Source: Chrysaora quinquecirrha
Lineage: Eukaryota; Cnidaria; Scyphozoa; Semaeostomeae; Pelagiidae
Length of the DNA: 64,000 nt
Direction of reading: 5' to 3'
NCBI GenBank assembly: GCA_014526335.1
Contig: JACTAT010000016.1
Coordinates: 6,193,346-6,257,345, forward strand
A model generated the notes under the pieces. The model had not been told where the DNA came from. It ran no database searches and saw only the letters and a program-made list of their open reading frames with translations. This document shows positions 8,885 through 33,621 of this stretch, one piece after another. A program made the translations under genes and the position numbers. Each line of letters begins with the position of its first letter. The stretch's first letter is position 1.

Positions 8885-9150
8885 GGAGTTCATCAGAGGC
8901 GGTGGTCCTCATGAGGCGGTGGTCTTACACCGGCAAGAGCTACCTCTCTATATTAAAATGGTGGTTGCCACGCGACCGATTTTGTACTAGCGAGTTTGGC
9001 GAGGTGGTGCGACCTTTCGAGATGCTGGTTTCGCACGATGCTGCCGCCGATGGGGTAGGCGAGCCAAAACTACTTCGCTTTTTCGTATCTGCTCCAGAAG
9101 CTGGGGTAATGTGGCCAACCCTTCTTCTTTGATCTACGTCACTGCGGCAA
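8885..9150 (+). repeat. composite-unit head, copy 4 (diverged)
   Basis: Keeps GGCGGTGGTCCTCATGAGG, ACCGATTTTGTA, GGGGTAGGCG and GGGGTAATGTGG, but is clearly diverged between them. It marks the change from hexamer-type to 51-bp-type units. Confidence 0.65.
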
Positions 9151-9554
9151 ATTGACACAATCGCCCAGCATGAACACATTTCACTCGCCTGCCAAACCAA
9201 ACTCGCATCGAAATTCATTCCAATTTCTTATGTTTTCGTTTCCTTACAAGGTCTTCTTACGAAATGATTAAAAATTGAAATCAATTTGCCAGCTTTGAAT
9301 GAGGGGTTTTGCTTTTCTGTGCAGCCAAACGAAAATAATTTATTTGTTTTACTCTAACGGATATTTTCTTCCTGCTGTTGAAAGAAGCATTGTGCAAGGA
9401 AAGTTCGCCTGCTGTGCGTGACCGTGACCCTCGCCATGACTTCCGCGTCTGAGGCAAATGACGTTTTCTTTTCATGCACATCTTTGGTTTCCAATGTTCA
9501 AAAAAATAAACACGTTTTTTTCGTGTAATTCTGGTATCATAGTTGATGTTTTCG

Positions 9555-10570
9555 TGTAATACCGTGAATAATTTCAGGACTGAGGAACAGGATAAAGGAG
9601 TGAGACCGAGGACCATGAGTAATTTCAAGACTGAGGAACAGGACTAAGGAATGGGACTGAAAACCACGAGTAATTACAAAACTGACGAACAGGACTGAAG
9701 AATGGGACCAAAGACCATGAGTACTTTCAGGACTGAGGAACAGGACTGAAGACCATGAGTAATTTCAGGAACAGGACTAACGAATGGGACTGAAGACCAG
9801 AAGTAATTTCAGGAACAGGACTAAGGAATGGGACTGAAAACCATGAGTAATTTCAAAACTGACGAACAGGACCGAAGAATGGGACCAAAGACCATGAGTA
9901 CTTTCAGGACTGAGGAACAGGACTGAAGACCATGAGTAATTTCAGGAACAGGACTAAGGAATGGGACTGAAGACCAGAAGTAATTTCAGGAACAGGACTA
10001 AGGAATGGGACTGAAAACCATGTGTAATTTCAAAACTGACGAACAGGACTGAAGAATGGGACCAAAGACCATGAGTACTTTCAGGACTGAGGAACAGGAC
10101 TGAAGACCATGAGTAATTTCAGGAACAGGACTAAGGAACAGGACTGAAGACCATGAGTAAGGAATGGGACTGAAGACCAGAAGTAATTTCAGGACTGAGG
10201 AACAGGACTAAGGAATGGGACTGAAGACCATGAGTAATTTAAGGACTGGCGAACAGGACTTAAGAATGGGACCAAAGACCATGAGTAATATCAGGACTGG
10301 CGAACAGGACTAAGGAATGGGACCAAAGACCATGACTAATTTCAGGACTGGCAAACAGGACTTACGAATGGGACCAAAGACCATGAGTAATTTCAGGACT
10401 AAGGAATGGGACTGAAGACCATGAATAATTTCAGGACTGAGAAACAGGAATTAGGAACAGGGCTGAAGACCATGAGTAATTTCAGGACTAAGGAATATGA
10501 AAAATAACAAGACTGTATAACAGGATCAAGGAATGGGACTGAAGACCATGAATGATCTCAGGACTTAGAA
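9555..10570. repeat. 51 bp minisatellite, block 1
   Basis: Tandem copies built from GACTGAAGACCATGAG, TAATTTCAGGACTGAGG and AACAGGACTAAGGAATGG with deletions and rearranged part-units. Minus-strand frames through it encode only the repeat. Confidence 0.85.
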
Positions 10571-10614
10571 ACAGACCATAGAGAAAGAGGACTGCAGTAC
10601 ACTAACTAATTTGA

Positions 10615-10850
10615 AACTTTATCTTATATACTAATTTTGTAGTAGTCAAGGCAACAATTTTGTCAGAGCATCTCCTCCGAGGCGGTTTATGTTACAGTTC
10701 TCAAACCTGCACCCTTCTCTGCAACCCATTCTGAAGTTGAGCCATCGCTTGCCATATCTTTCCTAACTGCTACCGGTTTTGGGGTAAACGGGAAAAAAGC
10801 CCCCTCCTTTGTCAAGAGGCATTGTCTTGCCCCATTAAAATCTTTTGTCT
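10615..10850 (+). repeat. composite-unit head, copy 5 (very diverged)
   Basis: Recognisable from CAATTTTGTCAGAGC, CTCCTCCGAGG and TTTTGGGGTAAACGGG in the same order as the other heads. It follows a minisatellite block directly. Confidence 0.5.
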
Positions 10851-11460
10851 ACACACCAGACGTAGATTTCTTGCTAACTGAATGTTAAATTCTTCTTACT
10901 TCACAACGATGACTACAAGTAACGAAGCTGACTGAATATATCTACTAAATTTCATGTATACCTGGATTATTTACTGGGAAATAACAACTTTTCTCGATCT
11001 AAAAAGGTTTTAACTTAATGTTTACAGGAAAATTCAGTCAACCGGCTTGAATCGCATTGTGTTAATGCTTTTACACCTTTAAATTGAAACAAAATGCCAT
11101 TACCTGATTTCAAATGCTTATTCAGAATTGCGTTTCATTCAATGCAAAACAAAAACCCTTTTGAAAACGTTTGTGAAAAGTGCATTTGAAAGCAAACAAA
11201 ACCAAATGCCATCCTGGATAGCAGTATCTGACTATGCAGTATGAAACAGGACTATCAAACTACTAAAAGACAAACAGTATCCTGCAGTAAACCAGAGTTC
11301 CTGACACGGGACCGATCAGACGGAGAATGCGTTCAATCCTTTTTATTGCTACGCTTTTATCAAGGATCATTTCAGAGGGAATGAAACAAGGATGCCTAGA
11401 AACTAAAACTTTCCACAGAACGAAAAAATGGACTAACCAACAGGCTTAGAAACACGCCGA
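10851..11460. repeat. inter-minisatellite spacer, duplicated at 12.80 kb
   Basis: No gene. The part at about 11.02-11.22 kb (TTCAGTCAACCGGCTTGAAT onward) is repeated with changes at 12.80-12.97 kb. This shows that minisatellite and spacer were duplicated together. Confidence 0.65.
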
Positions 11461-12470
11461 TGGACAGAACTAAGGAAGAGGGCTGAATACTGTGAATAAT
11501 TTCAGGACTGAGGAATAGCCCTAAGGAATGGGACTTAAGACCGAGTAATTTCAGGACTGAGGAACAGGATACAGGAGTGGTTCTGAAGACCATGAGTAAT
11601 TTCAGGACTGAGGAACAGGACTAAGGAATGGGACTGAAGACCATTAGTAATTTCAGGACTGAGGAACAGGACTAAGGAATGGGACTGAAGACCATGAGTA
11701 ATTCCAGGACTGAGGAACAGCACTAAGGAATGGGACTGAAGACCATGAGTAAATTCAGGACTGAGGAACAGAACTAGGGAATGGGACTGAAGACCATGAG
11801 TAATTTCAGGACTGAAGGAACTAAGGAATGGGACTGAAGACCTAAGACCATGAGTAAATTCAGGACTGGAATGGGACTGAAGACTGAAGACCACGAGTAA
11901 CGTCAGGATTGAGGAACAGGACTAAGGAATGGGGCTGAAGACCATGAGTAATTTCAGGACTGAGGAACAGGACTATGGAATGGGACTCAAGACCATGAGT
12001 AAATTCAGGACTGAGGAACAGGACTAAGGAACGGGACTGAAGACCAGGAATAATTTCAGGACTAAGAAATGTGAAAAATAACAAAGTTTACGAACTAGAC
12101 TAAGGAACTGGAGTGAAGACCCTGAACAATTTCAGGACTAAGGAACAGGATAAAGTAACGGGACTGAAGACCATGAATAATTTCAGGACTAAGGAATGTG
12201 AAAAATAACAAAGTTTACGAACTAGACTAAGGAACTGGAGTGAAGACCCTGAATAATTTTAGGACAAAGGAACAGGCTAAAGGAACAGGACTGAAGACTA
12301 TCGATAATTTCAGGAATAAGAAACAAGACAAAGAAATGGGACGGACCCCATGAATAATTTCAGGACTAAGGAATGGGATAGAAAATCTGAACAATATCAA
12401 GACTGTGGAACAGGACCAAGGAATGGGATGGGAAACCATCAATTCTTTCAGGATTATTTCAGGAACAGAC
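11460..12470. repeat. 51 bp minisatellite, block 2
   Basis: The cleanest block. Successive CATGAGTAAT/CATTAGTAAT starts at 11591 and 11642 give a period of exactly 51 bp. That is 17 codons, so a minus-strand frame stays open through several copies and translates to a 17-residue repeat with no known domain. Confidence 0.9.
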
Positions 12471-12650
12471 CATAGACAAAAAGAACTGCTGTAAACTCAC
12501 TAATTTGAAACTTAGGAACGTCATTCTGGACTAAGGACCTTGGACTAAAACAGAGGAACAGAACTGTGATTGGCACTAGGAAAAGGGACCCTGAACTAGG
12601 ACCAAGGAAAAATACTCAAGATTAGAAACTAGGAGCTAAGTCGAGAAGCA
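12471..12650. repeat. spacer, duplicated at 14.33-14.49 kb
   Basis: Shared sequence includes GGACTAAAACAGAGGAACAG and AACTAGGAGCTAAGTCGAG. The second copy is offset by about 1.84 kb. Confidence 0.65.
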
Positions 12651-12790
12651 GAGTTCGTTGAGGCAGAGGTTCTTAAGGCAGAGGTCCTTGAGGCAGAGGT
12701 CCTTAGGGCAGAGGTCCTTGAGGCAGACATCTTTGAGGCAGAGGTCCTTGAGGCGGAGGTTCTACGAGGCGGTGGTCAGAGACGGGCATG
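12650..12790. repeat. 15 bp minisatellite (GAGGCAGAGGTCCTT)
   Basis: About eight imperfect copies of the 15-mer. They end in GGCGGTGGTCAGAGACGGGCA, which also starts the head region of other composite units. Confidence 0.85.
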
Positions 12791-13250
12791 GGCTAGTTTC
12801 CTGAATATTCAGTCAACTGGTTTGAATCGCGTTGTTCAAATGCTTTTAACCCTTTCAATGCAAAAAATGCCATTACCAAATTTCAAAAGCTTATTCAGAA
12901 GTGCATTTCATTCAAAGAAAACAAACAAAACCCTTTTAAAAGAGTGCATTTGAAAGCCTTTCCAAATGCCATCACGAAGTCTAAGCTGCCTTCATTGCAG
13001 TATTATCTGCCTATACAGGACTGAGGAAGATAAACTACCACAAGACCAAGAAAGAGGATCTTGCAGTAAAACCGAGTTCTCCACAATTAGGGGGAGAATG
13101 CGTCCAATCCATTTTATTGCTACGTTTTCTATCATGGATCTTTGAGGAATCCTTTCACAGGGAAGGAAACAAGGACACCTAGAAAGGTAACATTTTCTTC
13201 TCAGCATAACAACTTGACCAACGAACTGGGCTAAGAAAATCGACAAGGAA
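12790..13250. repeat. inter-minisatellite spacer
   Basis: Second copy of the 11.03-11.4 kb spacer, including the remark-worthy block near GGGAGAATGCGT(C/T)CAATCC. No gene is supported. Confidence 0.6.
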
Positions 13251-14305
13251 CAGAACTGCAGAAAATGAACAATAACAAGACTGAGGAACAGGACCACAGT
13301 ACGGGACTGAAAACCACGAATAATTTCCGGACTAAGGAACATGAACATTAACATGACTGGGGAACAGGACCAAGGAACGGCACTGAAGACCATGAGTAAT
13401 TTCAGGACTAAGGAACATGAACAATAACAAGACTGAGGAACAACACCAAGGAATGGAACTGAAGACCAATTCAGGACTAAGGAACAGGATAAAGGAACCG
13501 GACTGAAAACCACAAATAATTTCAGGACTAAGGAACATGAACATTAACATGACTGGGGAACAGGACCAAGGAACGGCACTGAAGACTATGAGTAATTTCA
13601 GGACTAAGGAACATGAACAATAACAAGACTGAGGAACAAGACCAAGGAATGGAACTGACAACCATTTCAGGACTAAGGAACAGGATAAAGGAACCGGACT
13701 GAAAACCACGAATAATTTCAGGACTAAGGAACATGAACATTAACATGACTGGGGAACAGGACCAAGGAACGGCACTGAAGACCATGAGTAATTTCAGGAC
13801 TAAGGAACATGAACAATAACAAGACTGAGGAACAAGACCAAGGAATGGAACTGAAGACCATTTCAGGACAAAGGAACAGGATAAAGGAACCGGACTGATA
13901 ACCATGAATAATTTCAGGACTAAGGAACATGAGCAATAATATGACTGACAAACAGGACCAACAAACGGGACTGAAGACCATGAATAATTTCAGGACTAAG
14001 GAGAACAAACTATTACAAGACTGGGGAACAAGACCAAGGAATGGAGCTGAAGACCATTTCAGGACTAAGGAACAGGATTAAGGAACAGGACTGAAGACCA
14101 TGAATAATTTCAGGACTAAGGAACAGGATAAAGGAATGTTACTGAAGACTATAAATAATTTCAGGAATAAGAAACAGGACAAAGAAATATGACTGGACCC
14201 CATGAATAATTTCAGGACTAAGGAGCATGAACAATAACATGTCTGAGGAACAGGACCAAGGAACGGGACAGAAGACCATCAATTATTTCAGGACTATTGA
14301 CGGAA
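13250..14305. repeat. 51 bp-family minisatellite, block 3, with 196 bp higher-order repeat
   Basis: Related to the 51 bp repeat but organised in larger units. Identical landmarks recur at 196 bp steps over about three units between 13.3 and 13.9 kb, each holding four variant sub-units including one with ACATGAACAATAACAAGACT. Long minus-strand frames (up to 173 codons) here are repeat by-products. Confidence 0.8.
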
Positions 14306-14489
14306 CAGACCATAGACAAAGAGAACTGCTGTACACTAACTAATTTGAAACTAGGAATATCATTGCGGACTAAGGACCTTGGACTAAAACAGAGGAACAG
14401 AACTGTCATTGGCACTAGGAAAAGGGACCCTGGACTATGACCAAGGAAAAATACTCAATATTAGAAACTAGGAGCTAAGTCGAGAAGCA

Positions 14490-14600
14490 AAGTTTGTTCA
14501 AGCGCAGGTTCTTAAGACAGAGGTCCTTGAGGCAGAGGTCCTTTAGGCGGTGGTTCTACGCGGCGGTGGTTCTATGAGGCGGTGGTCAGAGACGGGCATG
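14490..14600. repeat. 15 bp minisatellite, second copy
   Basis: Same 15-mer family as 12.65 kb. It passes into GGCGGTGGTTCTACG repeats and then the last head. Confidence 0.8.
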
Positions 14601-14951: not shown

Positions 14952-15029
14952 CGTTTTACATCAGCATTTTCTCTTCCAGTTGTTTCCGTGGTGGAAATGC
15001 TTTTCGGAGCACAAGGAGATATGTCCGAT

Positions 15030-18000
15030 ATCTCCTTAATAATGTGAAATTTTTCAATATACCCTACATAAGAAAAGGTCAGTGTTTTTCGAGTCAGTGT
15101 TTTCCACTTTTGCTATAGGCAAAAAACGAAAACACTGACTTCACTCACCCGTGTTATAAAAGTTTACCCTGTTGCCTTTTACGTGGATTTCTTTAGTTTT
15201 TAAGCTGTACCCTGTCCAATAACACCTTAAAAATGTGAAATTTTTCAATATACCTTACGTTGGAAAAAGTCAGTGTTTTTCGGGTCAGTGTTCTCCGCTT
15301 TTGCTATAGGCAAAAAACGAAAACACTGACTTCACTAACCCGTGTTATCAAAGTTTACCCTGTTGCCTTTTACGTTGATTTCTTTAGTTCTTAAGCAGTA
15401 ACATGTCCAATAACACCTTAAAAGTGTGAAATTTTTCGATATACCTTACATTGGAAAAAGTCAGTGTTTTTCGGGTCAGTGTTTTCCGCTTTTGCTATAG
15501 GCAAAAAACGAAAACACTGACTTCACTGACCCGTGTTATCAAAGTTTACCCTGTTGCCTTTTACGTTGATTTCTTTAGTTCTTAAGCTGTATCCTGTCCA
15601 ATAACACCTTAAAAATTTGAAATTTTTCAATATACCTTACATAGGAAAAGGTCAGTGTTTTTCGGGTCAGTGTTTTCCGCTTTTGCTATAGGCAAAAAAC
15701 GAAAACACTGACTTCACTGACCCGTGTTATCAAAGTTAACCCTGTTGCCTTTTACGTTGATTTCTTTAGTTCTTAAGCAGTAACATGTCCAATAACACCT
15801 TAAAAGTGTGAAATTTTTCGATATACCTTACATTGGAAAAAGTCAGTGTTTTTCGGGTCAGTGTTTTCCGCTTTTGCTATAGGCAAAAAACGAAAACACT
15901 GACTTCACTGACCCGTGTTATCAAAGTTTACCCTGTTGCCTTTTACGTTGATTTCTTTAGTTCTTAAGCAGTAACATGTCCAATAACACCTTAAAAATGT
16001 GAAATTTTTCGATATACCTTACATTGGAAAAGTCAGTGTTTTTCGGGTCAGTGTTTTCCACTTTTGCTATAGGCAAAAGACGAAAACACTGACTTCACTG
16101 ACCCGTGTTATCAAAGCTTACCCTGTTGCCTTTTACGTGGATTTCTTTAGTTTTTAAGCTGTATCCTGTCTGATAACACCTTAAAAATGTGGAATTTTTT
16201 CAATATACCTTACATTGGAAAAAGTCAGTGTTTTTCGGGTCAGTGTTTTCCGCTTTTGCTATAGGCAAAAAACGAAAACACTGACTTCACTGACCCGTGT
16301 TATCAAAGTTTACCCTGTTGCCTTTTACGTTGATTTCTTTAGTTCTTAAGCAGTAACATGTCCAATAACACCTTAAAAGTGTGAAATTTTTCGATATACC
16401 TTACATTGGAAAAAGTCAGTGTTTTTCGGGTCAGTGTTTTCCGCTTTTGCTATAGGCAAAAAACGAAAACACTGACTTCACTGACCCGTGTTATCAAAGT
16501 TTACCCTGTTGCCTTTTACGTGGATTTCTTTAGTTCTTAAGCAGTATCCTGTCCAATAACACCTTAAAAATATGAAATTTTTCAATATACCCTACATAGG
16601 AAAAGGTCAGTGTTTTTCGGGTCAGTGTTTTCCGCTTTTGCTATAGGCAAAAAACGAAAACACTGACTTCACTGACCCATGTTATCAAAGTTTACCCTGT
16701 TGCCTTTTACGTTGATTTCTTTAGTTCTTAAGCAGTAACATGTCCAATAACACCTTAAAAGTGTGAAATTTTTCGATATACCTTACATTGGAAAAAGTCA
16801 GTGTTTTTCGGGTCAGTGTTTTCCGCTTTTGCTATAGGCAAAAAACGAAAACACTGACTTCACTGACCCGTGTTATCAAAGTTTACCCTGTTGCCTTTTA
16901 CGTTGATTTCTTTAGTTCTTAAGCAGTAACATGTCCAATAAAACCTTAAAAATGCGAAATTTTTCAATATACCTTACATTGGAAAAAGTCAGTGTTTTTC
17001 GGGTCAGTGTTTTCCGCTCTTGCTATAGGCAAAAAACGAAAACACTGACTTCACTGACCCGTGTTATCAAAGTTTACCCTGTTGCCTTTTACGTTGATTT
17101 CTTTAGTTCTTAAGCAGTAACATGTCCAATAACACCTTAAAAGTGTGAAATTTTTCGATATACCTTACATTGGAAAAAGTCAGTGTTTTTCGGGTCAGTG
17201 TTTTCCGCTTTTGCTATAGGCAAAAAACGAAAACACTGACTTCACTGACCCGTGTTATCAAAGTTTACCCTGTTGCATTTTACGTTGATTTCTTTAGTTC
17301 TTAAGCAGTAACATGTCCAATAACACCTTAAAAGTGTGAAATTTTTCGATATACCTTACATTGGAAAAAGTCAGTGTTTTTCGGGTCAGTGTTTTCCACT
17401 TTTGCTATAGGCAAAAAACGAAAACACTGACTTCACTGACCCGTGTTATCAAAGTTTACCCTGTTGCCTTTTACGTTGATTTCTTTAGTTCTTAAGCAGT
17501 AACATGTCCAATAAAACCTTAAAAATGCGAAATTTTTCAATATACCTTACATTGGAAAAAGTCAGTGTTTTTCGGGTCAGTGTTTTCCGCTTTTGCTATA
17601 GGCAAAAAACGAAAACACTGACTTCACTGACCCGTGTTATCAAAGTTTACCCTGTTGCCTTTTACGTTGATTTCTTTAGTTCTTAAGCAGTAACATGTCC
17701 AATAACACCTTAAAATGCGAAATTTTTCAATATACCTTACATTGGAAAAAGTCAGTGTTTTTCGGGTCAGTGTTTTCCGCTTTTGCTATAGGCAAAAAAC
17801 GAAAACACTGACTTCACTGACCCGTGTTATCAAAGTTTACCCTGTTGCCTTTTACGTTGATTTCTTTAGTTCTTAAGCAGTAACATGTCCAATAAAACCT
17901 TAAAAATGCGAAATTTTTCAATATACCTTACATTGGAAAAAGTCAGTGTTTTTCGGGTCAGTGTTTTCCGCTTTTGCTATAGGCAAAAAACGAAAACACT

Positions 18001-18485
18001 GACTTCACTGACCCGTGTTATCAAAGTTTACCCTGTTGCCTTTTACGTTGATTTCTTTAGTTCTTAAGCAGTAACATGTCCAATAACACCTTAAAAGTGT
18101 GAAATTTTTCAATATACCTTACATTGGAAAAAGTCAGTGTTTTTCGGGTCAGTGTTTTCCACTTTTGCTATAGGCAAAAAACGAAAACACTGACTTCACT
18201 GACCCGTGTTATCAAAGTTTACCCTGTTGCCTTTTACGTTGATTTCTTTAGTTCTTAAGCAGTAACATGTCCAATAACACCTTAAAAATGTGAAATTTTT
18301 CGATATACCTTACATTGGAAAAAGTCAGTGTTTTTCGGGTCAGTGTTTTCCACTTTTGCTATAGGCAAAAAACGAAAACACTGACTTCACTGACCCGTGT
18401 TATCAAAGCTTACCCTGTTGCCTTTTACGTGGATTTCTTTAGTTTTTAAGCTGTATCCTGTCTGATAACACCTTAAAAATGTGGA
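15030..18485 (+). repeat. 191 bp tandem repeat array, left arm (about 18 copies)
   Basis: Landmarks at 15396, 15587 and 15778 give a 191 bp period. Copies are highly similar. Each holds GGGTCAGTGTTTTCCGC, TTTTGCTATAGGCAAAAAAC and GAAAACACTGACTTCACTGA, so it has a strong dyad around CTATAG with paired GTCAGTG/CACTGAC boxes. The 60-codon open frames at 16931, 17504 and 17885 are by-products of this repeat. The array is inverted relative to the one at 30843-33502. Confidence 0.95.
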
Positions 18486-18885
18486 AGGAAGGTATTCTGG
18501 CTCGTTGCTTGATTTCCTGTCTTTATTTTTAAACTCCCATCGCTCCTTATGAGACAACACAATGTCAAATGGTATACACGAAAGGGCACCTAGGAAAAAA
18601 GGAAACCAATTTAAAAAATAGCTTCCAACCATCTAAAAATATGTCTGTTGAATGATGTAATTGCACAAGTGATACATTTATTAACATTTCTAGAACTTAG
18701 CTCTCTTTAGTTTTCAGATTCGATTCTCTTAAAAATCTCCAATTCTTTTAAAGACGTTTCATAAAACACGAAACACATCTTCTCTTCAATAGTTTAAAGT
18801 TATAAAAACATTTGTAGCATGAACATTAAAATAGGTATTATAATAGGTGGCGGACATTTTGCTTCTTCTAAAAGTGCAATTGTAG
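18486..18885. other. 3' flank of the kinase-transposase gene
   Basis: Between the left 191 bp array and the stop codon at 18886. On the minus strand AATAAA (plus-strand TTTATT at 18677-18682) lies about 205 nt after the stop and is a plausible polyadenylation signal. No other gene is supported. Confidence 0.45.
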
Positions 18886-19255
18886 TTAGTCAATTTCTTG
18901 ACCAGGCAGGTTTAAGAGATGGCTTTTTTTAATATCAGAAAAATTACCCCTTGGAAAATCGTTTCCACACTGACCACAGAGTTTTCCCACTGGCACTGCC
19001 GCAACACTTTCTACAAGAAGAGGCTCGTTATTATGCCAAATTCGGGTAAACGGTGCATTATTTGATTCTGTACAGCGATCAGATAACGCATACTGTCTGT
19101 GTTTCCGGGGGCATTTTCCCTTTCTGCCAGCTCCATTTGGGTTATTCGGGTAAGTAAGTGCAGCTCTGCATACGGACTTCACACCTTGAACCATTGCCTT
19201 CAGTAGACCATTTTTGTCCGCAACCGCCACTGCATGGCTACATATTCGCACTGAC
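18886..19255 (-). CDS. exon 3: end of SWIM finger and Cys-rich tail
   Basis: The acceptor TTTTTTTCAG precedes 19255. The first residues complete the SWIM CxH pair (CSH). A basic stretch (AGRKGKCPRKHR) and a CGQCG knuckle follow before the TAA at 18886. The tail may bind nucleic acid, but that is inference. Confidence 0.8.
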
Positions 19256-19771
19256 CTGAAAAAAATGTTAAGAATTTCATGCAGTTCTCTTTCTCATAGC
19301 AATTTGCAAATGCTAGCTACCGTAAAAATCGTGTAATACAAAAAAAGACAAAAATTTATGCCGAAGATAATGAAACTTCCTTAAGTCTAACAATCGCCCA
19401 ATCTCGGTGCTACTCATTTTCTTGGAAGATCTGAAGAGTATCTGTTTATAAAAACCCACTTCTTGAAATTTGATAGTGCCGAAAAATATTTACAATTAAG
19501 GCTGCCGAAAAGTGAAGTTTAAGGGAGCATGTCACCCATGAAGTCCCGTAAAGCTGCTGCTGGTCGTGCTGAGTGCTGGCATCCCCTTTTAACGGAAAAG
19601 AAATACTACTGGAAATTCTGAAATAGAAACATATTGTTTGGGGAGAAGTTATTTGTCGACCACTAAACTACTGAATTATTAAAGTATCCGTCACGCCCTG
19701 ATATACTGCCCCCCTTCTGTCAAGCCTGGCATACCTATAGGTGTTTTAAGATCAAATAAAAATCACCTTAC

Positions 19772-20021
19772 CTATAACCAATACAGTCGCAAGTCACTTT
19801 CTCACCCGTTATCTCAACTTTGTGCATTTTATCCCCAGATGCAACAAGAAAGCACTGCTTACGGTGCGCTGCTGAATCTTGCGTAGGAGCTGACACTATT
19901 GCAGTTTCGTTGTTGATATAGTCTAATGCCTTTTTCTCAATCAAGCCAGCATGAAACAGCATTGGCAAGGCTTCTTCAAGCCGAACTGATAGGTTTGCTC
20001 TTGGTGTTTTTATGGGAATTT
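19772..20021 (-). CDS. exon 2, 3' part: start of SWIM zinc finger
   Basis: Open from the LTR edge at 20021 to a GTAAGG donor at 19771-19766. It ends with KVTCDCIGY, the first CxC half of a SWIM zinc finger. Across the intron the next exon supplies ICSHAVAVA, giving the full CxC...CxH signature. SWIM fingers commonly follow MULE transposase domains, which supports the gene model. Confidence 0.8.
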
Positions 20022-20252
20022 TGTTTTGATGTCCTGACGTAATGGTGCTGTCGACCCAAGTATACACAGAAAAAAACGATTAGTTTACTATTTACATTTG
20101 TACAAATCCATAGCTGTTCATAAACTCATAAATTTAACCATAACATATTTCCGAATTCTAACTGAAGTCTCCCGAAAACACATACCTCTGCATTCCAAAA
20201 CGCTACGCCCCTAATATGCCAGGAATGCAGCTAACAATGCAACAACACAACA
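20022..20252 (-). repeat. 3' LTR of the gypsy element
   Basis: 231 bp. Plus-strand ends TGTTTTGATG and CAACACAACA. It directly abuts the ATTT target copy in exon 2 of the kinase-transposase gene. Confidence 0.92.
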
Positions 20253-20265
20253 CCCTTCCCCCCTT
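20253..20265 (-). promoter_or_regulatory. polypurine tract
   Basis: Minus-strand AAGGGGGGAAGGG directly next to the 3' LTR, as needed for plus-strand priming. Confidence 0.85.
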
Positions 20266-20520
20266 ATTGAAAGTCATTTTAATCGTTCATAAGTCTATCC
20301 TGCTAAAAGTCTCTTATTTTAAACTAAAATTAATAATCATATGATCAACATAAGCAAAATTCAAAGTTTAATTACAAATAACTGTTTTTGCAAAATAACG
20401 GAATGAGCAACACTAATCTTGAAAATGCTACAACTACAGATATTTTTTCTTTATTTTTATTTTTTTTTATTACTATGTAAAAATGATACGCATAATGATT
20501 CGAAAAAGTAAATAAAGTGC

Positions 20521-22685
20521 TTATAAAAGTTTTAGATAATGTACAATGAAATTGCCATACCGTTGTGGTGGCTGCGGATTTAATCTCAAATTGAATCTTC
20601 GATTATGTCTTCGTCGTTCATTCCCGTCATCATCTTCGCTGGACGAACTTTCGTCGTTAACTAATTTCCCATCTCCCATCCCCTCTTCTTGAGAAGTGGA
20701 GGGTATTAAAGAAACATCCTCAGTTGTTTCGATTTGAGGGCTTTCTGTGAAATCTTTAGGAACCTTTTTAAGTTTGTCTCTTGTAACTACTTTAGTTTCC
20801 ACGCCATGTACGCCATCAATAGAAATTTTATATACGGGATGCGAAGCTTCAACAACAACACATGGTCCACACCATTTTCTAGCTAACTTGACACGTTTAT
20901 TTCGGGGTAGGTAAGTGTAAACTCTGTCACCAATTGCCAAAGGGTCATCTTTTACTCTCTTATCGTAGTAAGTTGCTGATACTCTTTGCCGTGTCTGCAT
21001 GCTGTTTCTTGCCAATTCGTATAGCTTTTCCAATTTGTTCGAAAAGTCTTCAAGTGTCTGTGGCTGACACGAATTTTGGATAAATGTACCGTATAACAAA
21101 TCAATGGGTGTTCGAAATGTCCGCCCGAACATAAGTTCTGCTGGTGTAAAACCCGTACTGCTGTGTACACTGGTATTGTAAGCATATGCAACTTCTCTCG
21201 TCTAACAATCCAATTCAGGACGTTGAGATGTATCCTCATTCAAGAAGGCAGTAAGATACTGTTTGATGACTGAGTTTGACTGTTCGGTTAGCCCGTTACT
21301 TTGAGGATGGTAACTAGTAGTACGTATTTTCTTAACACCCAAAAGGTCCATCAATGATTGAAATAATTGACTTTCAAATGCAGGGTCCTGGTCAGACAAA
21401 AGTTTATACGGTATCCCGAATTTCAAGCAATAATCAACGATGCATTTTGCAGCTGTTAAAGCAGTCCTGTCCTTTATGGCAAAACACTGTATATATTTTG
21501 AAAAGTGGTCATTGATTACCAAGATATGTTTATTTCCTCTGGCAGTTGTTGGCAGTTCAACCAGAAAATCGATTGATATCAATTCAAGAGGTGCAACAGG
21601 GAATGCACGAATTCCCATATTGCCATGCTTTCTGTTCTGAGGTTTTATTTCTAAACAAATACTGCAACGTTTGATAAACTCACTCACCGATTGATGTAAG
21701 TTGGGCCACCAGAATTTCCGCAATATGTTCCTGTGTGTTTTGTAGATGCCAAAATTTCCTGAGCACCAATTTGCATGATTCAACAACAGAATATCCTTTC
21801 GAAATTCCTCAGGCGATACGACCAGTTTCTGTCCATGATGAAGATAGAATAAAATACCATTTTCAATAATCAACTTGCCAACAGCTGAACGAAATTCGAC
21901 AGGATAAGATTTCACATCCGTCTTTTCTAACAAACAATCAATAACCTGTTTCAAAGTATCAACTGCATGTTGTGCTGCAATCATATCTTCCTGACTAAAG
22001 TTAAGAGCATCCAAAATGATTGAATTAACTTTAATTGGATTCCAAGATGCATCAGGTCTAATAGTACGACTTTCATTCACTTTGCGTGTCAATGGACGAA
22101 TGCCCGCTGGTGAAACTTTCATTCCAACAAACTGTACTTCAGCCTTTGCAAATTCACATTTTGAAAAATTAATACGAAGACCATATGTTGACAATTTATC
22201 TAAGACCTTTTCCAAATGTAGAAGGTGCTTGGCCATATCAGGAGAATGGATTATGATATCATCATAGTAACAAGCAGCAAATTCCCAACAATCTTTTAAC
22301 ACAATCCCAAGTGCAGCTGAAAGACTGTATGGAGCACCAACTAGGCCAAAAGGCATACGGTTCCAAGAGAACTTTCCAGAAGGGTATGGTAAAACAAAAG
22401 CCGTTTTTGACTTATCTTCCTCTTTGATCGATATGTGCCAATACGCATCTTTCAAATCAATCACAGAAAATATTCTGGACCCTCTCAAACTTTCCATCAA
22501 ATCCTCAACTCGAGGAATGGGGTATTTACCAGGAATAGTTTTCTTGTTCAAAGCTCTGTAGTCTATACATAACCGAATACTTCCATTTGGTTTTACTACA
22601 GGTACAATAGGGCTGCCATATGGTGATAAGGAAGGTTCAATGAAGCCATTTTCTTGAAGTTCCTTGATTTGATTGTTTATTGCTC
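20521..22685 (-). pseudogene. pol: pol: reverse transcriptase and integrase, broken
   Basis: Reverse transcriptase shows RLCIDYRALN, VIDLKDAYWHI (catalytic Asp) and CYYDDIIIHS (YYDD box). At about 22077 the protein jumps from the end of the palm into a pre-integrase linker, so thumb, connection and RNase H are deleted in frame. Integrase follows: the HHCC zinc region ends in CSICLEIK, and catalytic positions are ISIDFLVEL (Asp), LLSDQDPAFES (Asp) and HPQSNGLTEQ (Glu). A TAG at 21202-21204 interrupts the frame, and reading continues in the same phase to 20521. The C-terminal part has an Arg/Lys-rich region and an acidic Ser/Asp tract near the end. No restored protein should be assumed functional. 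Confidence 0.88.
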
Positions 22686-24464
22686 TCGCTGACTGTAGGG
22701 AATTCTTCTTGCTGGTAAACTCACTGGTAAATCATCTTTTAATTTTATTTCATGTTCCAGTGGTAAATTTGAAGGTAACGAATCAGGTTTGCTCAGCATT
22801 TTGTCATTGTAGGATTTCAACAACTTGTTTAGTTGCTTTCTTGTATCCAATTCAATCTCACCAACATCAATGTGATCTACATCTAACTGAACTGCCCCAA
22901 CATTGACATCTTCTTTTACGTTTTTGGTTTCTGCAAGTGAAGTCATTCGACCAATGATTGTGCCTCTTTTCAATTTGACACGGTCTCCACTATAGTTATG
23001 GATTGGAATCATCACTTTTCGTCTTTGGTCTTCAATCACATAATCATTCATTTCTAAGTCAAGACTTTCCATGTCAAACCCACGTTCAATCAAGAATGGT
23101 GGCTGCAAAGTACCTTTTATTTGTCCTTTTACAAGACTAGTTGTCCCATTTTCGATTAAGGTAACTTTGGCAACCTGTATATATGCAGAAGTGATGTCTG
23201 AATTTTCTTTGTATGCCTTTACACAAATTTCCTCCTTTTGTTTTGTAATGAAAGTTAAGGTATCATCAGCTTGTCGTTTGCGTATTTCATCAAATCGTTG
23301 CTCAGTGTTTGTACCAAATATGATTGTTGTTATGCTTGGTGACACCAGGACTGGTTCATATTCCAGTGTGTAAACAGATCCATCAGCTTTCATAAATCCA
23401 AGGTTAACATAAACCACACCGTCAAAATAAAAGGGTGTTCCTGTTATTCCGATGCCTGCACGGTGGATAGGAGTAAGTGGAGGTTTAACCAATAGTTCTT
23501 CATAAATTTTCCGTGGGATAATTGCAAATTGACTTCCTGGATCATAAAGAAACTCAATCTCTTTCAAACCAATTCTAATTTTCATTATTAAGCGTTTTCC
23601 AGGTATTAACTCATCTAGCTTTCCAGACATTGCAGATGTTTGCGAATTTGGGGGTCTTTGGCTACTTTTGTTGGGCCCTTTTGCAGGCTGTGTACAATAC
23701 CTCTGAATATGTCCTTGTTGGTTACAATCATGACAGGTTTTCAATCTAAAACATCTTGGTTTAGTATGTCCCTCTTTCTTGCAATGGTCGCAAACAGGTT
23801 TTCTTTCTGAAGACCCCAATTTTTGAACCAATTGTGACATCATATTTTCTAATTTCCCTAACCGGTTTTCAAGGCTCCCACTTGCTGATGCAGCTGCAAT
23901 AGCTCCTGGAGGCTCGGGTACTGGACATGAAGATGTAGAATTCACTAAAAGAGGGTTTCCCTCAAGCTTGCTTTCGATAAGCTCCAAGAAATTTTCCAAT
24001 TTGGCATTGCCTGAAAGTTGCGAGATATGAACTTCCTTCCGCAAGGAATCATCCAGCGTTGACAAGACATGCTGCGTGGCAATGGCCTCCACGGTATCCT
24101 TGTCTGTGACTCCATAAAGTTCTCGCACAATATTTCTTAGTTCTTGAACAAACGTTGTTATCTTTGCCCCTTTTTTGAATTTTAGGCTTCTCAGCTTCGT
24201 TTGAAGATTTCTTTTATATTCTTCGCCGCAAAATTCATGTTTTATCACTGCCTTTAGTTCGTCATATGTTATTTCAGGATTATCTATTAATTGACGCGAG
24301 ATGAATTCAAATGCACTCCCTTCGGTGCAGCATATTAATACATCATTCTGCTTCTCAGCTTCTACTCCAAGTGCCTTAAGTTGGGCTTCGAATTGAAGAC
24401 ACCAAAGTTCAAAACTGGTTTCCTTATCTCCTCTGAATCTTTGTATTGTAGGTATCCTCGGCAT
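22677..24464 (-). CDS. gag-pro: gag-protease
   Basis: Starts at the first ATG after the leader (24464), giving about 595 codons. An alpha-helical capsid-like region spans residues about 10-170. Two CCHC zinc knuckles follow: CDHCKKEGHTKPRC at about 225-238 and CHDCNQQGHIQRYC at about 244-257. An aspartic protease motif reads YDPGS at about 307-311, where DTG or DSG is usual, so the protease may be altered. The frame ends with TAA at 22677, inside what should be the N-terminus of reverse transcriptase. A single-base loss near 22685 explains this. Confidence 0.85.
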   Translation of the reverse strand: MPRIPTIQRFRGDKETSFELWCLQFEAQLKALGVEAEKQNDVLICCTEGSAFEFISRQLIDNPEITYDELKAVIKHEFCGEEYKRNLQTKLRSLKFKKGAKITTFVQELRNIVRELYGVTDKDTVEAIATQHVLSTLDDSLRKEVHISQLSGNAKLENFLELIESKLEGNPLLVNSTSSCPVPEPPGAIAAASASGSLENRLGKLENMMSQLVQKLGSSERKPVCDHCKKEGHTKPRCFRLKTCHDCNQQGHIQRYCTQPAKGPNKSSQRPPNSQTSAMSGKLDELIPGKRLIMKIRIGLKEIEFLYDPGSQFAIIPRKIYEELLVKPPLTPIHRAGIGITGTPFYFDGVVYVNLGFMKADGSVYTLEYEPVLVSPSITTIIFGTNTEQRFDEIRKRQADDTLTFITKQKEEICVKAYKENSDITSAYIQVAKVTLIENGTTSLVKGQIKGTLQPPFLIERGFDMESLDLEMNDYVIEDQRRKVMIPIHNYSGDRVKLKRGTIIGRMTSLAETKNVKEDVNVGAVQLDVDHIDVGEIELDTRKQLNKLLKSYNDKMLSKPDSLPSNLPLEHEIKLKDDLPVSLPARRIPYSQREQ

Positions 24465-24534
24465 TTTTTTTCTAGCGAAATATTCCAAGACAACAAATTT
24501 CAACAACCATGGCCTAGCCAGCCAATGCTTTACG

Positions 24535-24552
24535 ATCTCGGTAGGACCTCCA
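24535..24552 (-). promoter_or_regulatory. tRNA primer binding site
   Basis: Minus-strand TGGAGGTCCTACCGAGAT begins 3 nt inside the 5' LTR. It opens with TGG, complementary to a tRNA CCA end. The sequence resembles the 3' end of Gln-type tRNAs with about two differences; the tRNA identity is inference. Confidence 0.7.
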
Positions 24553-24555
24553 AAA

Positions 24556-24788
24556 TGTTTTGATGTCCTGACGTAATGGTGCTGTCGACCCAAGTATACA
24601 CAGAAAAAAACGATTAGCTTATACTATTTACATTTGTACAAATCCATAGCTGTTCATAAACTCATAAATTTAACCATAACATATTTCCGAATTCTAACTG
24701 AAGTCTCCCGAAAACACATACCTCTGCATTCCAAAACGCTACGCCCCTAATATGCCAGGAATGCAGCTAACAACGCAACAACACAACA
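24556..24788 (-). repeat. 5' LTR of the gypsy element
   Basis: 233 bp, near-identical to 20022-20252. It differs by a few substitutions and a small TAT indel near 24620. Confidence 0.92.
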
Positions 24789-24875
24789 ATTTCCATCTGC
24801 GTTGTAGACGGTAAACGTATTTGCTTCCCATTTCGTGCATCTTCAATACTCAGTTTATTGAACTCCATAACGTAT
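24789..24875 (-). CDS. exon 2, 5' part (before the gypsy insertion)
   Basis: The acceptor TTTCTTTGCGCAG precedes 24875. The phase agrees with the donor at 24955/24956. About 29 codons are open up to the LTR at 24788. The last bases (ATTT) are the target duplication and continue in frame with 20021 downward. Confidence 0.75.
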
Positions 24876-24955
24876 CTGCGCAAAGAAAATACTTATAATT
24901 CTTATATCAAATATAGAATGCATCATACAAAACGAGAAGAATTATTAGCAAGTAC

Positions 24956-27900
24956 CTCTTCTTATTGATTTTAGACCATGAGAACCATTCTTCAACAGGA
25001 ACCTGCAAATATGCTGCTTCTGTGCAAAGCCTGAACTTATCGCTTTGACCAAACAATGTACGCTCTATCTCGGAATCTTGTTTTTCAGTCTCAACTTGCC
25101 AAACGTCTTTCACAAACTGTTTCTTGGACAAGTCATCTTTTTTTGAATAGCCAATGGCTTTTTTCGTGCAGATAAAATCAAATTACATGTCTCAGACTGA
25201 TTTGTATACACTCTGCTTGGATATTGACCATTTTGTAAAGGCATCCCAGCCTTTCTCCTTACATCTTTAATCAGCTTTCTTATAACGCTCTTTCTCCTTT
25301 CAGAAAGGTAACTGTTGAAATGCACTGGATCTTCACTTCCCAATCCTAGTGCATTGCGTTCGAGGGTATCAAGAATGGGCTGTTTCCCTTCCATGATTTC
25401 TTTCAGATGCTTCTTGTTTTCTGCATCAACAATTCCTTCCTTCCCAAAAACGATCTCAAGAAAAGGTTGTTGGGCAGCCGAACTCAAAATTCCGAGTGAC
25501 TTCAAAAAGGCGATACAATTTTGTCTGAAATGGTTAGTGCACCTCAGTGCTATAGACTTTGGAAAATTCCGTATACAGGAATTAATAAGGGCTTGCTCCC
25601 CATCTGTTACAATACCGAATGTTTTATTCATCAAATTTGTCTTCCTTGCAATTGAGGCTAAGGTTAAATCAAATGTTTCTTCGTCTTTCCCATGGTGAAC
25701 AATTGTTGGTCCTATCATTACAGCTTTCGACCAATGACTAGCGATGTTCTTGCTTTTCGATTCAATTAACTGGTGTCGGTATGTAAGAGGAGTGACATCA
25801 AATGCCCCGTGGTTAAAGGTTGGATCTATGGATAATGGCATACCATGTGAAACTACGGATAGGTTATCAATCATTCTTTGATTGCCAAGAACCCAGGTAT
25901 CAAAGGGCAGATCACTGTGGTGCCATATGATTCTGCTCTCTCCTAATTCTTGGTTGTATGATAAAAGGGCATCTACCTCGTTCATCTGTAATGAAGACTT
26001 CCTCATCAAATCCGTAACTTGCTTCTTGGATCTGGGCTGATCTCCAAAGTCACAATCATTCAAGTTTGCTTTTGCGTCTTCATAGATTTCTCCTGCCTTT
26101 CGTTTCCCTTGTTTGTTGCCATTGAACAGATCTTTTATCGTACTTTTTTTTAATGGGTAGAATCCTGAACTGGCTCCTTGTCTTTTGGCATTACCATGTG
26201 GCTCTACAGTAAATGACACTTCTTTAGATTCGTTGCTGATTGATGCATCAATCAGATATTGCAGTATTATAGTGTTGTTCAAAACATGACCGTCCTTATT
26301 AAAAAAGTATGAAATGTTTCGGATAAGGCCAAATTTATTTTCCTTCCTGTGAATCTTTAAAAAATACTGGCCATCTTGAACGCATTCTATCTGCTTTTTT
26401 GATACCACTGACAGATTTACCCTACCTTCTCTGTCGGTTGCAGCATTGACAGTGAAGATACGAGCCTCCAAACACTTTGAGAACACGCCATTTAGATCGC
26501 TTTGAACGTCGTCGACATTTTTAATGTTTGCACAATTAATAGCAAACAGTGCTTGAGCCCGACAAGCTTGCGGAATCCTGCTGGCTCTGGGTACGTTTGA
26601 TTGCACAAGTGCAAACTGCTCAGCTTTTGTGAGGTTCCGGGTCATGCTTGTTATACTTGGTAGATCAAAGACACCCCATTTCTCTATAGATAATTTTTCC
26701 CATTCACTCGGTTTTGACAGCTTTTCTTTCCTTATGATTCTTGGTAGAAAGCTCTGTTGCCCATGCTTCTTCTGTGAGTCTCCTTTCGTTGACAGGTCTG
26801 GAAGAGAACTGGAATCATCATTTAGTGCATCATGATTCATTTTAATATCTTGGCATTCATTGGATGACCTCGAAAGAGATTTTTCGACCACAATGCTACT
26901 GTCTGAAATAAGAACTGGCTCAAGACTCTCTGAAAGTATTGTATGCTGTGACTCTTGTTGTGTTAATTTGGTCAAACAGGCATCATTCCCTCTGCTGTCT
27001 ACACGAAGTTTCACCTCAACATCCAAGTGTTCGTTCATCGGTTTCAATGGTGAATTGCTGATACTGCCTTCGTTTTTCCATTCTATTCTAACAATTTCAA
27101 GAGGAGAATCTTTTAATCCACTGTAGAACAATCTTTGCCAAATCCAGTACCCGGCGTCTCGCTCATTCACGAAAACTTTTAGGATTCCATTTCCATTACC
27201 TCCTAATCTTTGGCCAATCACATGGGTGTCAATAACGATGAAGCTGCCATTTAGTCTTCCTATAATAAAACTATATAGCTCCACTGTCATTACACAGAGA
27301 CCAGTTTCCTTTAACAATTCTTGTAAAAGCTCATTTTTTCCTCCCTCTGAGAATACCATAGCCCCCAGACTTTTGCTGTGTAGCACTAGCGGCTTCACTA
27401 AATGGGTGTGAATCATCTCTGCATATGCTTCATCGACCCCATATAATTTTTCTTTTGATCGAAATTCGTTTATTTCAACTGGAAAAACTTCGATCACGTT
27501 GCTTACAATTTCGGTTAGCTCTTTCCGCGATTCTATTTGCGTTGTCAATATGATTTCAATACATTTAATGCAAAGAAATACGCAGGAATTTGTTCCATCA
27601 TTCAGTGGATCACTGTTTTTCGTGTGCAGGCTATTCTGGATAAACACAATATTTCCCTGTTCCTGTGAAGAACCTTGGTGGTTTCGCAAAGGAAAACTTT
27701 CTGATTTGTCTTTCCTAGTAAGTGTTTGAAGAACTTTTTCTAGCGACCAGCGTTGTTCTGGATATTTTTGTATACATCCCTTGAATGCATCAAGAATACC
27801 TATCCACTCAGATGCCTGTATATGCCGGTACGATTCGTCACCTTCAGGGAGTATCCCTTTTAAAATTTGCCTTCTTACAAATGCCTGCCAATTGCTCTCT

Positions 27901-28730
27901 ATGTGCTGCTTTTTCAGCTCAGCAAAATAAGGTGCTTTAGCACTTGGGTTCAGCATGCAAAAGAACACCATACCAAGGCTCCATATATCTGCTCGTAGAA
28001 GTTGATCTATGCGCATCTCTCTAGGTCGTTTAGAAGGATCGATTATCTCTTGGGCCATAAATACAGGTGTACCTTTATAGTTATTGACAGTAAATGAGCA
28101 GGCAGCATGTGCGGATTGACAAATCTTACCCCAACTCTCCCCAAAGTCAGTAAGCTTAGTAACACAGGGTTTGTTTAGCCAAAGTAACTTCTTCTCCTTT
28201 TCAGATACTTTCCGTAGATGACTTGAATCCACTAAAATATTTCCTGGTTTCAAGTCCCTATGCGCCACACCTTGGGAATGTAAATATGTCAAGCCATCAA
28301 CAATCTGTTTTGCTGTACATGGTATCAAGTGCTCAAACCCAATAAACTTGCATTCATTTAGCTTCTCTAAAAGTTCGGCTAGACTGGAAACACTGTCATC
28401 TAATCCAAAGTCTGACATATCAAAGCACATGTACTCAAGCATGATGGCCTTTTTTGGGAAACATACTGCAATAAAACGTACAACGTTTGGGTGGTTAAGT
28501 TTATGTAAAAACCTTGCCTCTCTAGTGACCTCTTTCTCATCCACGTCGGCTAGAACCTTAACCACAACATCAGAATCTTCATATCTGCCATGAAAAACTT
28601 TTCCATACCCCCCAGAGCCTATTAGTGACTTCCTTTTAAATTCGCTCAAGTTGAAACAGGGCATGCCATCATAAGGCAACTGGGGGCCACTTCGTTGAGT
28701 TTTCTTCGGGATCTGCGGTAGCTGAAACAT
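24956..28730 (-). CDS. exon 1: protein kinase, protease-like region and MULE transposase core
   Basis: 1,206 codons are open from an ATG at 28730 until the A-run frameshift (stop at 25110). The ATG directly follows TTATAG, so an upstream exon is possible. Kinase, residues about 30-340: glycine loop GSGGYGKV at 38-45, lysine in VVVK at 58, HRDLKPGN at 157-164, DFG at 195-197, DIWSLGM at 248-254. APE is changed to AQE at 226-228. The catalytic set is intact, so activity is plausible. Residues about 375-550 hold NDGTNSCVFLC (Cys383) and VIDTHVIG (His503) before a Gly-rich turn, like the Cys/His pair of papain-fold proteases or deubiquitinases; this is a weak call. Residues about 935-1190 are transposase: DPTF with Asp969, TDGEQAL with Asp1043, CTNHF (Cys1064, His1067), and TNQSETCN with Glu1180 as a candidate third acid. 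The 74-residue Asp-Asp spacing fits MULE transposases. Confidence 0.85.
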
Positions 28731-30842: not shown

Positions 30843-33502
30843 CCTCAAATTAAAGCAAATACCTTTTCCAATGTAAGGTATATTGAAAAAATGTAACATT
30901 TTTAACGTGTAATCTGACAGGATACTGCTTAAAACTCAAGAAAATCCACGTAAAAGGCAACAGGGTAAACATTGATAACACGGGTCAGTGAAGTCAGTGT
31001 TTTCGTTTTTTGCCTACAGCAAAAGTGGAAAACACTGACCCGAAAAACACTGACCTTTTCCTATGTAGGGTATATTGAAAAATTTCACATTTTTAAGGTG
31101 TTATTGGACAGGATACAGCTTAAAAACTAAAGAAATCCACGTAAAAGGCAACAGGGTAAACATTGATAACACGGGTCAGTGAAGTCAGTGTTTTCGTTTT
31201 TTGCCTATAGCAAAAGCGGAAAACACTGACCCGAAAAACACTGACCTTTTCCTATGTAGGGTATATTGAAAAATTTCACATTTTTAAGGTGTTATTGGAC
31301 AGGATACAGCTTAAAAACTAAAGAAATCCACGTAAAAGGCAACAGGGTAAACTTTTATAACACGGGTCAGTGAAGTCAGTGTTTTCGTTTTTTGCCTATA
31401 GCAAAAGCGGAAAACACTGACCCGAAAAACACTGCCTTTTTCCAATGTAAGGTATATTGAAAAATATCACATTTTTAAGGTGTTATTGGACAGGATACTG
31501 CTTAAGAACTAAAGATATCAACGTAAAAGGCAACAGGGTAAACTTTTATAACACGGGTCAGTGAAGTCAGTGTTTTCGTTTTTTGCCTATAGCAAAAGCG
31601 GAAAACACTGACCCGAAAAACACTGACTTTTTCCAATGTAAGGTATATTGAAAAATTTCACATTTTTAAGGTGTTATTGGACATGTTACTGCTTAAGAAC
31701 TAAAGAAATCCACGTAAAAGGCAACAGGGTAAACTTTGATAACACGGGTCAGTGAAGTCAGTGTTTTCGTTTTTTGCCTATAGCAAAAGCGGAAAACACT
31801 GACCCGAAAACACTGACTTTTTCCAATGTAAGGTATATTGAAAAATTTCACATTTTAAGGTGTTATTGGACATGTTACTGCTTAAGAACTAAAGAAATCC
31901 ACGTAAAAGGCAACAGGGTAAACTTTGATAACACGGGTCAGTGAAGTCAGTGTTTTCGTTTTTTGCCTATAGCAAAAGCGGAAAACACTGACCCGAAAAA
32001 CACTGACTTTTTCCAATGTAAGGTATATTGAAAAATTTCGCATTTTTAAGGTGTTATTGGACATGTTACTGCTTAAGAACTAAAGAAATCCACGTAAAAG
32101 GCAACAGGGTAAACTTTGATAACACGGGTCAGTGAAGTCAGTGTTTTCGTTTTTTGCCTATAGCAAAAGCGGAAAACACTGACCCGAAAAACACTGACTT
32201 TTTCCAATGTAAGGTATATTGAAAAATTTCACATTTTTAAGGTGTTATTGGACAGGATACTGCTTAAGAACTAAAGAAATCCACGTAAAAGGCAACAGGG
32301 TAAACTTTTATCACAAGGGTCAGTGAAGTCAGTGTTTTCGTTTTTCGCCTATAGCAAAAGAGGAAAACACTGACCCGAAAAACACTGACTTTTTCCAATG
32401 TAAGGTATATTGAAAAATTTCGCATTTTTAAGGTTTTATTGGACATGTTACTGCTTAAGAACTAAAGAAATCAACGTAAAAGGCAACAGGGTAAACTTTG
32501 ATAACACGGGTCAGTGAAGTCAGTGTTTTCGTTTTTTGCCTATAGCAAAAGTGGAAAACACTGACCCGAAAAACACTGACTTTTTCCAATGTAAGGTATA
32601 TCGAAAAATTTCACACTTTTAAGGTGTTATTGGACATGTTACTGCTTAAAACTCAAGAAAATCCACGTAAAAGGCAACAGGGTAAACATTGATAACACGG
32701 GTCAGTGAAGTCAGTGTTTTCGTTTTTTGCCTATAGCAAAAGCGGAAAACACTGACCCGAAAAACACTGACTTTTTCCAATGTAGGGTATATTGAAAAAT
32801 TTCACATTTTTAAGGTGTTATTGGACAGGATACAGCTTAAAAACTAAAGAAATCCACGTAAAAGGCAACAGGGTAAACTTTGATAACACGGGTCAGTGAA
32901 GTCAGTGTTTTCGTTTTTTGCCTATAGCAAAAGCGGAAAACACTGACCCGAAAAACACTGACTTTTTCCAATGTAAGGTATATTGAAAAATTTCGCATTT
33001 TTAAGGTTTTATTAGACATGTTACTGCTTAAGAACTAAAGAAATCAACGTAAAAGGCAACAGGGTAAACTTTGATAACACGGGTCAGTGAAGTCAGTGTT
33101 TTCGTTTTTTGCCTATAGCAAAAGCGGAAAACACTGACCCGAAAAACACTGACCTTTTCCTATGTAGGGTATATTGAAAAATTTCATATTTTTAAGGTGT
33201 TATTGGACAGGATACAGCTTAAAAACTAAAGAAATCAACGTAAAAGGCAACAGGGTAAACTTTTATAACACGGGTCAGTGAAGTCAGTGTTTTCGTTTTT
33301 TGCCTATAGCAAAAGCGGAAAACACTGACCCGAAAAACACTGCCTTTTTCCAATGTAAGGTATATTGAAAAATATCACATTTTTAAGGTGTTATTGGACA
33401 GGATACTGCTTAAGAACTAAAGATATCAACGTAAAAGGCAACAGGGTAAACTTTGATAACACGGGTCAGTGAAGTCAGTGTTTTCGTTTTTCGCCTATAG
33501 CA
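30843..33502 (-). repeat. 191 bp tandem repeat array, right arm (about 14 copies, inverted)
   Basis: Reverse-complement copies of the 15.0-18.5 kb repeat. The innermost units of both arrays begin or end in nearly the same phase. Both carry edge variants at the CCTGTCCAATAACACC site (CTGTCTGATAACACC on the left, CCTGTCAGATTACACG on the right). The outer end at 33502 stops inside a unit (GCCTATAGCAA) and abuts the 2,139 bp tandem unit. The 60-codon minus frames are repeat by-products. Confidence 0.95.
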
Positions 33503-33621
33503 ACACATGCCAGGAAGCCGGAAAAGATCAAACCGACTTTCTATTAAATTTGAAAGCATGCTGAACTTACTTGTCACGACAGCAGCCGTCAACCTACACA
33601 CGGAAATATCTTATAATGATC

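Follow-up and report, generated by a model that had tools for sequence, protein, structure and literature searches.

Transposons with viral-tegument-like deubiquitinases (VTDs), plant Mutator-like elements (MULEs) with Ulp1 proteases and transposases phosphorylated by their host are already known. Muta1, an active MULE of Aedes aegypti, encodes a transposase of 504 amino acids in an element of 3.2 kb that is classed as a type 2 Foldback and whose ends contain tandem repeats (PMC5225508). The complete transposases in a 2026 survey of arthropod MULEs span 313-1136 amino acids, and the available portion of that survey makes no mention of kinases (PMC13359780). For the VTDs of Helitrons (8ADD), Erven et al. 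propose a role in protection from ubiquitin-driven loss (PMC9741609), and phosphorylation of the Mos1 transposase by host protein kinase A (PKA) blocks paired-end assembly and nuclear entry (PMC3902898). Here we describe a gene in a 64,000-nucleotide stretch of the cnidarian Chrysaora quinquecirrha (contig JACTAT010000016.1, positions 6,193,346 to 6,257,345; hereafter the window) in which a Ser/Thr kinase, a predicted VTD and a MULE-type transposase core are joined.

We read the locus as a broken copy of a DNA transposon, likely Mutator-like, whose gene joins a Ser/Thr kinase, a predicted VTD deubiquitinase and a DDE core, followed by predicted spliced exons with a SWIM finger. We put this reading, including the mechanism set out below, at a probability of roughly 60%. 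The domains lie in this order with their catalytic residues conserved, relatives share the order, and the window copy carries three lesions; intact copies would make a single protein of ~1,550 residues.

As far as the available parts of the sources show, the locus shares features with each of the described systems and differs from all of them. It resembles Muta1 in the spacing of its catalytic triad (74/24/137, against 69/24/136 derived from the residue numbers of Muta1) and in a CxxH motif present in both, and the tandem repeats in the ends of Muta1 may have a counterpart in 191-bp arrays that are candidate ends only (PMC5225508). It differs from Muta1 in protein length (an inferred ~1,550 against 504 amino acids), in its 191-bp unit and in that no target-site duplication was found. 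Helitron VTDs lie in RepHel proteins (PMC9741609), whereas in the window the VTD is placed between kinase and MULE transposase. The Kaonashi/KIU elements of plants likewise combine a MULE with a ubiquitin/SUMO-type protease, but their Ulp1 is encoded by a separate VANC-type gene, whereas the window VTD is within the transposase and is accompanied by a kinase (PMC13317346). In Mos1, as may hold for the locus, transposition is controlled through phosphorylation, but by a host kinase, which is inhibitory; in the window the transposase itself includes a kinase domain (PMC3902898). By an earlier, sequence-only reading of the stretch, no Mutator-like transposase with an N-terminal kinase was known. 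In the accessible text of the open-licence literature (Repbase entries being outside the search), we likewise found neither a kinase in a MULE transposase nor a kinase and a VTD together.

The open reading frame runs on the minus strand from an ATG at 28730 to 25110 and comprises 1,206 codons without a stop, a run for which the chance expectation is ~4e-34 (six frames, 64 kb, base composition of the window). The sequence-only reading had placed a kinase and a MULE-like core in this frame; the frame and the named motifs are present, with a strong Pfam match for the kinase and one below the cut-off for the MULE core. The kinase domain has the Gly loop, the Lys, HRDLK and DFG, and at the position of APE it has AQE, where the 12 other rows covering that site all have APE. 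The catalytic loop, HRDLKPGN, is of the Ser/Thr form. Profile and motifs together predict that the domain is a eukaryotic Ser/Thr protein kinase. A search of NCBIfam gave kinase matches far under the cut-off, and a search of Rfam gave zero matches.

A third enzyme-like domain, between the kinase and the transposase, had escaped the sequence-only reading and is predicted to be a VTD-type deubiquitinase. It corresponds to residues 337-560 and has the papain-like VTD fold. The catalytic Cys and Asp-x-His are present in 13/13 rows of an alignment of this domain (A2; 12 relatives and the window, with P0004, P0005 and P0014 left out). Compared with the PDB by sequence, A2 gave six rows, among which the VTD 8adb was fourth (E 1.2), in a block spanning the Cys motif. 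Because this sequence match is weak, the assignment rests on the fold. Searching Pfam with A2 left the window without a match and returned ten single-member chance rows.

The transposase core has a DDE triad with MULE spacing and the CxxH motif, sequence features characteristic of the MULE superfamily. In 18 of 19 proteins the three intervals of the triad measure 73-75, 24 (to the His) and 130-137; the nineteenth, P0049, escaped the search pattern. Pfam MULE is found at E <= 1 in all nine members of an alignment of the core (best 7e-6). This alignment (A3) holds the window and eight relatives (P0001, P0002, P0006-P0010 and P0043); outside it are the two close neighbours of P0002 (P0003 and P0005), together with P0004, P0011 and the divergent P0012-P0014. 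The database's own annotation gives PF10551 for P0002, P0047, P0052 and P0056. The window rows of A3 and of a further alignment, A4, take in a short tail past the frame change described below, and A4 compared with solved structures gave five rows, all at chance level. Loci related to A3 were also sought in viral contigs (25 pattern matches, 0 confirmed) and in bacterial and archaeal genomes (14 pattern matches, 0 confirmed).

Translated searches with four relatives traced the remainder of the gene to 24958 and then through 20028-19771, 19260-18946 and 18599-18483, the best coordinates coming from P0008. The spliced SWIM pair of the sequence-only reading stands in so far as CxC and CxH are joined through a GT-AG intron, whereas the spliced window peptide scores 16.5 bits against Pfam SWIM, under the 19.6 cut-off. 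That cut-off is exceeded in P0008 (29.5 bits) and P0050 (20.3 bits), two relatives with a SWIM finger. SWIM zinc fingers are common in MULEs, not universal.

We searched for proteins of the same architecture, scoring the best 7,988 candidates by shared words. This first search returned at least 42 proteins, of which P0001-P0014 were examined; P0015-P0042 cover only 10-31% of the query. Eight relatives (P0001, P0002, P0003 and P0005-P0009) align with 99-100% of the query, at 42-44% identity; their domain order is the same, and the residues of kinase, VTD and DDE core are kept. The order kinase, MULE core, SWIM recurs in other proteins of greater length, and among these relatives kinase and transposase are not always separate genes. 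Four full-length frames (P0002, P0003, P0005 and P0007) stop, by eye, at the site of the window's first intron. P0008, a protein of 1,555 amino acids from Holothuria leucospilota, has Pkinase and SWIM above the Pfam cut-off. In P0050 (1,512 amino acids, from a 5,123-base contig) Pfam detects Pkinase and SWIM; a single frame also contains the DDE, VTD and C-terminal zinc motifs, and the protein scores 555 bits against the family MULE profile. A third long frame, P0043, extends from the kinase C-lobe through the C-terminus. Because the window introns are absent from both, P0050 and P0043 may be transcripts.

Other relatives depart from this pattern. P0004 breaks off after the first D of the triad, and its kinase and VTD start are in tandem duplicate inside one predicted protein. 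Most of the kinase is absent from P0010; P0011 is missing the N-lobe as well as the greater part of the DDE core. P0012 and P0013 are divergent and retain the kinase and VTD residues; P0013 (Exaiptasia) matches P0008 at 33% over kinase and VTD and at 28% over the C-terminus, its DDE core is seen by eye only, and the MULE profile does not match it. P0014, also unmatched by that profile, has the kinase and no VTD; there the same kinase type (DFGES) stands ahead of a different C-terminal part, similar by eye to another transposase lineage. From P0014, the kinase may possibly have been joined to transposases more than once.

A second protein search returned at least 29 proteins, with 11 of the new ones read closely and the others used for the tree only. 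Among the 29 listed, Pfam finds a kinase in 11 and none in 18. These 18 comprise 14 frames of <=573 amino acids, P0010 and P0046, which start within the kinase/VTD region, P0049, which begins at the transposase, and P0048 (761 amino acids, 12 member sequences), in which the same transposase follows a different N-terminus with a weak zinc-finger match. P0044 has an unrelated insert of ~150 residues ahead of the DDE core (coiled-coil by eye) and a repeated acidic linker motif.

We compared pairwise identities between domains in nine proteins, a small set taken from the 15 rows of alignment A1 and picked as full length. The correlations were r 0.965 for kinase and MULE, 0.936 for kinase and VTD and 0.956 for VTD and MULE, values reached by 2, 4 and 1 of 10,000 permutations, respectively. 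Mean identity is 55% in the kinase, 44% in the VTD and 54% in the MULE region, whereas the linker joining the VTD to the MULE region averages 24%. These sequence correlations are as expected if the three domains are passed on as one constrained protein. In a tree of 33 MULE regions the label 'kinase' needs nine changes, and 82 of 500 label shuffles are equally low; the tree says little on kinase gain or loss because for most unlabelled rows, which are short frames, the upstream part is not visible. In the same tree P0048 stands beside P0050 at 93/85, unstarred.

The window copy is broken by three lesions, which the sequence-only reading had missed. One is a change of frame within the MULE exon (Table 1). 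Another is a long terminal repeat (LTR) retrotransposon in the coding exon, at 20022-24788, where an intron had previously been drawn. It is flanked by a 4-bp duplication, AAAT, at 20018-20021 and 24789-24792, and its domain order marks it as Ty3/gypsy-like; it has a PNMA-like gag, and its LTRs are short (~230 bp) and 98-99% alike. At the third lesion, exon 4 stops at ~18484 at a tandem array, which leaves ~48 C-terminal residues of P0008 without a counterpart. The last recognisable exon therefore extends past 18886, which had been taken as the end of the gene.

The two 191-bp arrays are 95.5% identical over 2.6 kb and lie in inverted orientation around the gene. They would suit element ends because Muta1, a type 2 Foldback, also has ends with tandem repeats, and they are candidate ends only because the left array interrupts the gene and no duplication is seen at the edges. 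The search for exact 8-10-mers beside inverted ends yielded 116 rows, and 9 when the right flank was shuffled; the best 15 of the 116 all lie inside the arrays and are uninformative.

Several observations weigh against reading the locus as a MULE with a built-in kinase and VTD. Target-site duplications were not found at the array edges, and the element ends are unproven. Pfam MULE matches the window at residues 1004-1071 with E 1e-3 and 19.9 bits (19.9-21.4 bits across two profile runs), under the cut-off of 27.6; the match in P0008 is also below the cut-off, and Pfam finds no MULE domain in P0050, whose assignment rests on motifs and the family profile. The MULE fold model is too poor for use (pLDDT 54), and a Trp that is important in Muta1 sits, by eye, at another distance from the E. 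The kinase motifs also vary: Ala replaces the first glycine of the Gly loop in P0008, the DFG-to-APE segment is missing from P0044, P0050 has DYG for DFG, and P0043 has PPE for APE. P0048 has neither kinase nor VTD, so these enzymes are not indispensable and the N-terminal module can differ. To judge from the sequences of P0048 and P0044, the N-terminal enzymes are not obligatory in every copy.

These last points could also mean that the kinase and VTD are captured passengers in a MULE, without a role in transposition and kept because they are harmless. Capture of gene fragments is known for MULEs, according to the available part of PMC6431247, part of the kinase is lost in P0044, the whole VTD is absent from P0014, and P0048 manages without either. 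However, kinase and VTD catalytic residues are kept among proteins that are 42-44% identical, and the kinase is as conserved as the MULE region where the linker is not, and we regard this explanation as rather unlikely. Distinctly unlikely, in our judgement, is that a transposase has been domesticated as a host gene, in which case the kinase-VTD-transposase would serve the host and the window would hold a dead paralogue. Domestication would account for the conserved introns and catalytic residues, the annotation of the sea cucumber protein P0008 as an ordinary kinase and the failure to find a target-site duplication, and domesticated transposon VTDs are reported in the accessible text of Erven et al. 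(PMC9741609). It fits poorly with the complete DDE triad, with the 76 member sequences of one 90% cluster (P0054), and with copies that differ by duplications and inserts, both close ones (P0006 and P0044, 76-91% identical in aligned blocks) and the distant P0004; P0004 and P0044 are two distinct copies in one gene set. That a host kinase gene beside a transposon was wrongly joined to it is scarcely credible: the window copy is decayed, with several repeats inside it, but the 1,206 codons form a single frame without an intron, and the eight full-coverage relatives already refute such an artefact.

Table 1. Features of the kinase-VTD-MULE gene and its flanks (window coordinates)
Feature	Position	Strand	Details
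Left array	15021..18483	+	191-bp unit, 18.1 copies; candidate terminal repeat
Exon 4	18484..18589	-	last recognisable exon; runs into tandem array
Intron 3	18590..18947	-	GT-AG
Exon 3	18948..19255	-	SWIM CxH at 19234-19242; CxxC of C-terminal zinc region
Intron 2	19256..19771	-	GT-AG; splits SWIM CxC from CxH
Exon 2, past retrotransposon	19772..20021	-	ends with SWIM CxC at 19783-19791
Lesion 2, LTR retrotransposon in coding exon	20022..24788	-	LTRs 24556-24788 and 20022-20252; gag, protease, reverse transcriptase, integrase
Exon 2, ahead of retrotransposon	24793..24875	-	P0043 match 24877-24800
Intron 1	24876..24955	-	GT-AG
Exon 1	24956..28730	-	kinase, VTD domain, linker, MULE core; open to 25110, homology then in another frame
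Lesion 1, frame change within MULE exon	25137..25164	-	four of four relative queries switch frame there
MULE DDE core	25191..25826	-	first D (DPTFN) to E (NQSE); D-74-D, CxxH His 24 after second D, E 137 after second D
Predicted VTD-type deubiquitinase domain	27051..27722	-	residues 337-560; Gln, Cys, Asp-x-His kept
Ser/Thr protein kinase domain	27723..28637	-	residues 32-336; Pfam Pkinase E 1.7e-36; GSGGYG, VVVK, HRDLKPGN, DFGES, AQE
Right array	30864..33503	-	same 191-bp unit, 13.8 copies, inverted; candidate terminal repeat

The window holds further repeats. Remains resembling a long interspersed nuclear element lie on the minus strand at 48289-50235, with frames for a reverse transcriptase (E 7.7e-26) and an endonuclease (E 7.7e-13). 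A 241-nt inverted repeat (54065-54305 and 54446-54686), 96% complementary and with its arms 140 nt apart, is foldback-like or like a miniature inverted-repeat transposable element. The region 3598-14550 contains degenerate 6-bp arrays (TAAGAT), a direct duplication of 1.36 kb (94%) and nested tandem repeats (units ~13, 25 and 51 bp), and a dispersed direct repeat of 529 bp (43623-44145 and 60782-61308) is 90.5% identical.

If the locus derives from a MULE whose transposase carries its own kinase and VTD, the SWIM finger and zinc region would bind the element ends and the DDE core would cut and join DNA. In this family, transposition is the work of the SWIM/zinc region and the DDE core. By taking ubiquitin off the transposase, or off a host factor that is bound, the deubiquitinase would probably delay degradation. 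The kinase would probably phosphorylate the transposase or its bound partners and thereby govern entry into the nucleus, the pairing of ends or timing. With the enzymes fused in cis, both would stay with the transposase they serve. Because PKA blocks steps of Mos1 transposition, phosphorylation is a known control point, and it is plausible that the kinase acts on the transposase or on host factors.

More tentatively, an animal MULE lineage may have acquired its own post-translational control, in which a giant transposase would phosphorylate and deubiquitinate itself and nearby host factors with a virus-like toolkit of kinase and tegument-deubiquitinase, letting the lineage persist in cnidarians and echinoderms. 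Erven et al. describe cnidarian VTDs fused to various regions, several of them transposon-associated, and word counts for kinase and MULE are zero in the accessible text (PMC9741609). The kinase-VTD-MULE protein would give a concrete architecture to these fusions, to which that text devotes one sentence, and would link DNA transposons with the herpesvirus tegument-deubiquitinase. A transposase with its own kinase and deubiquitinase domains would make self-controlled modification by selfish DNA directly testable.

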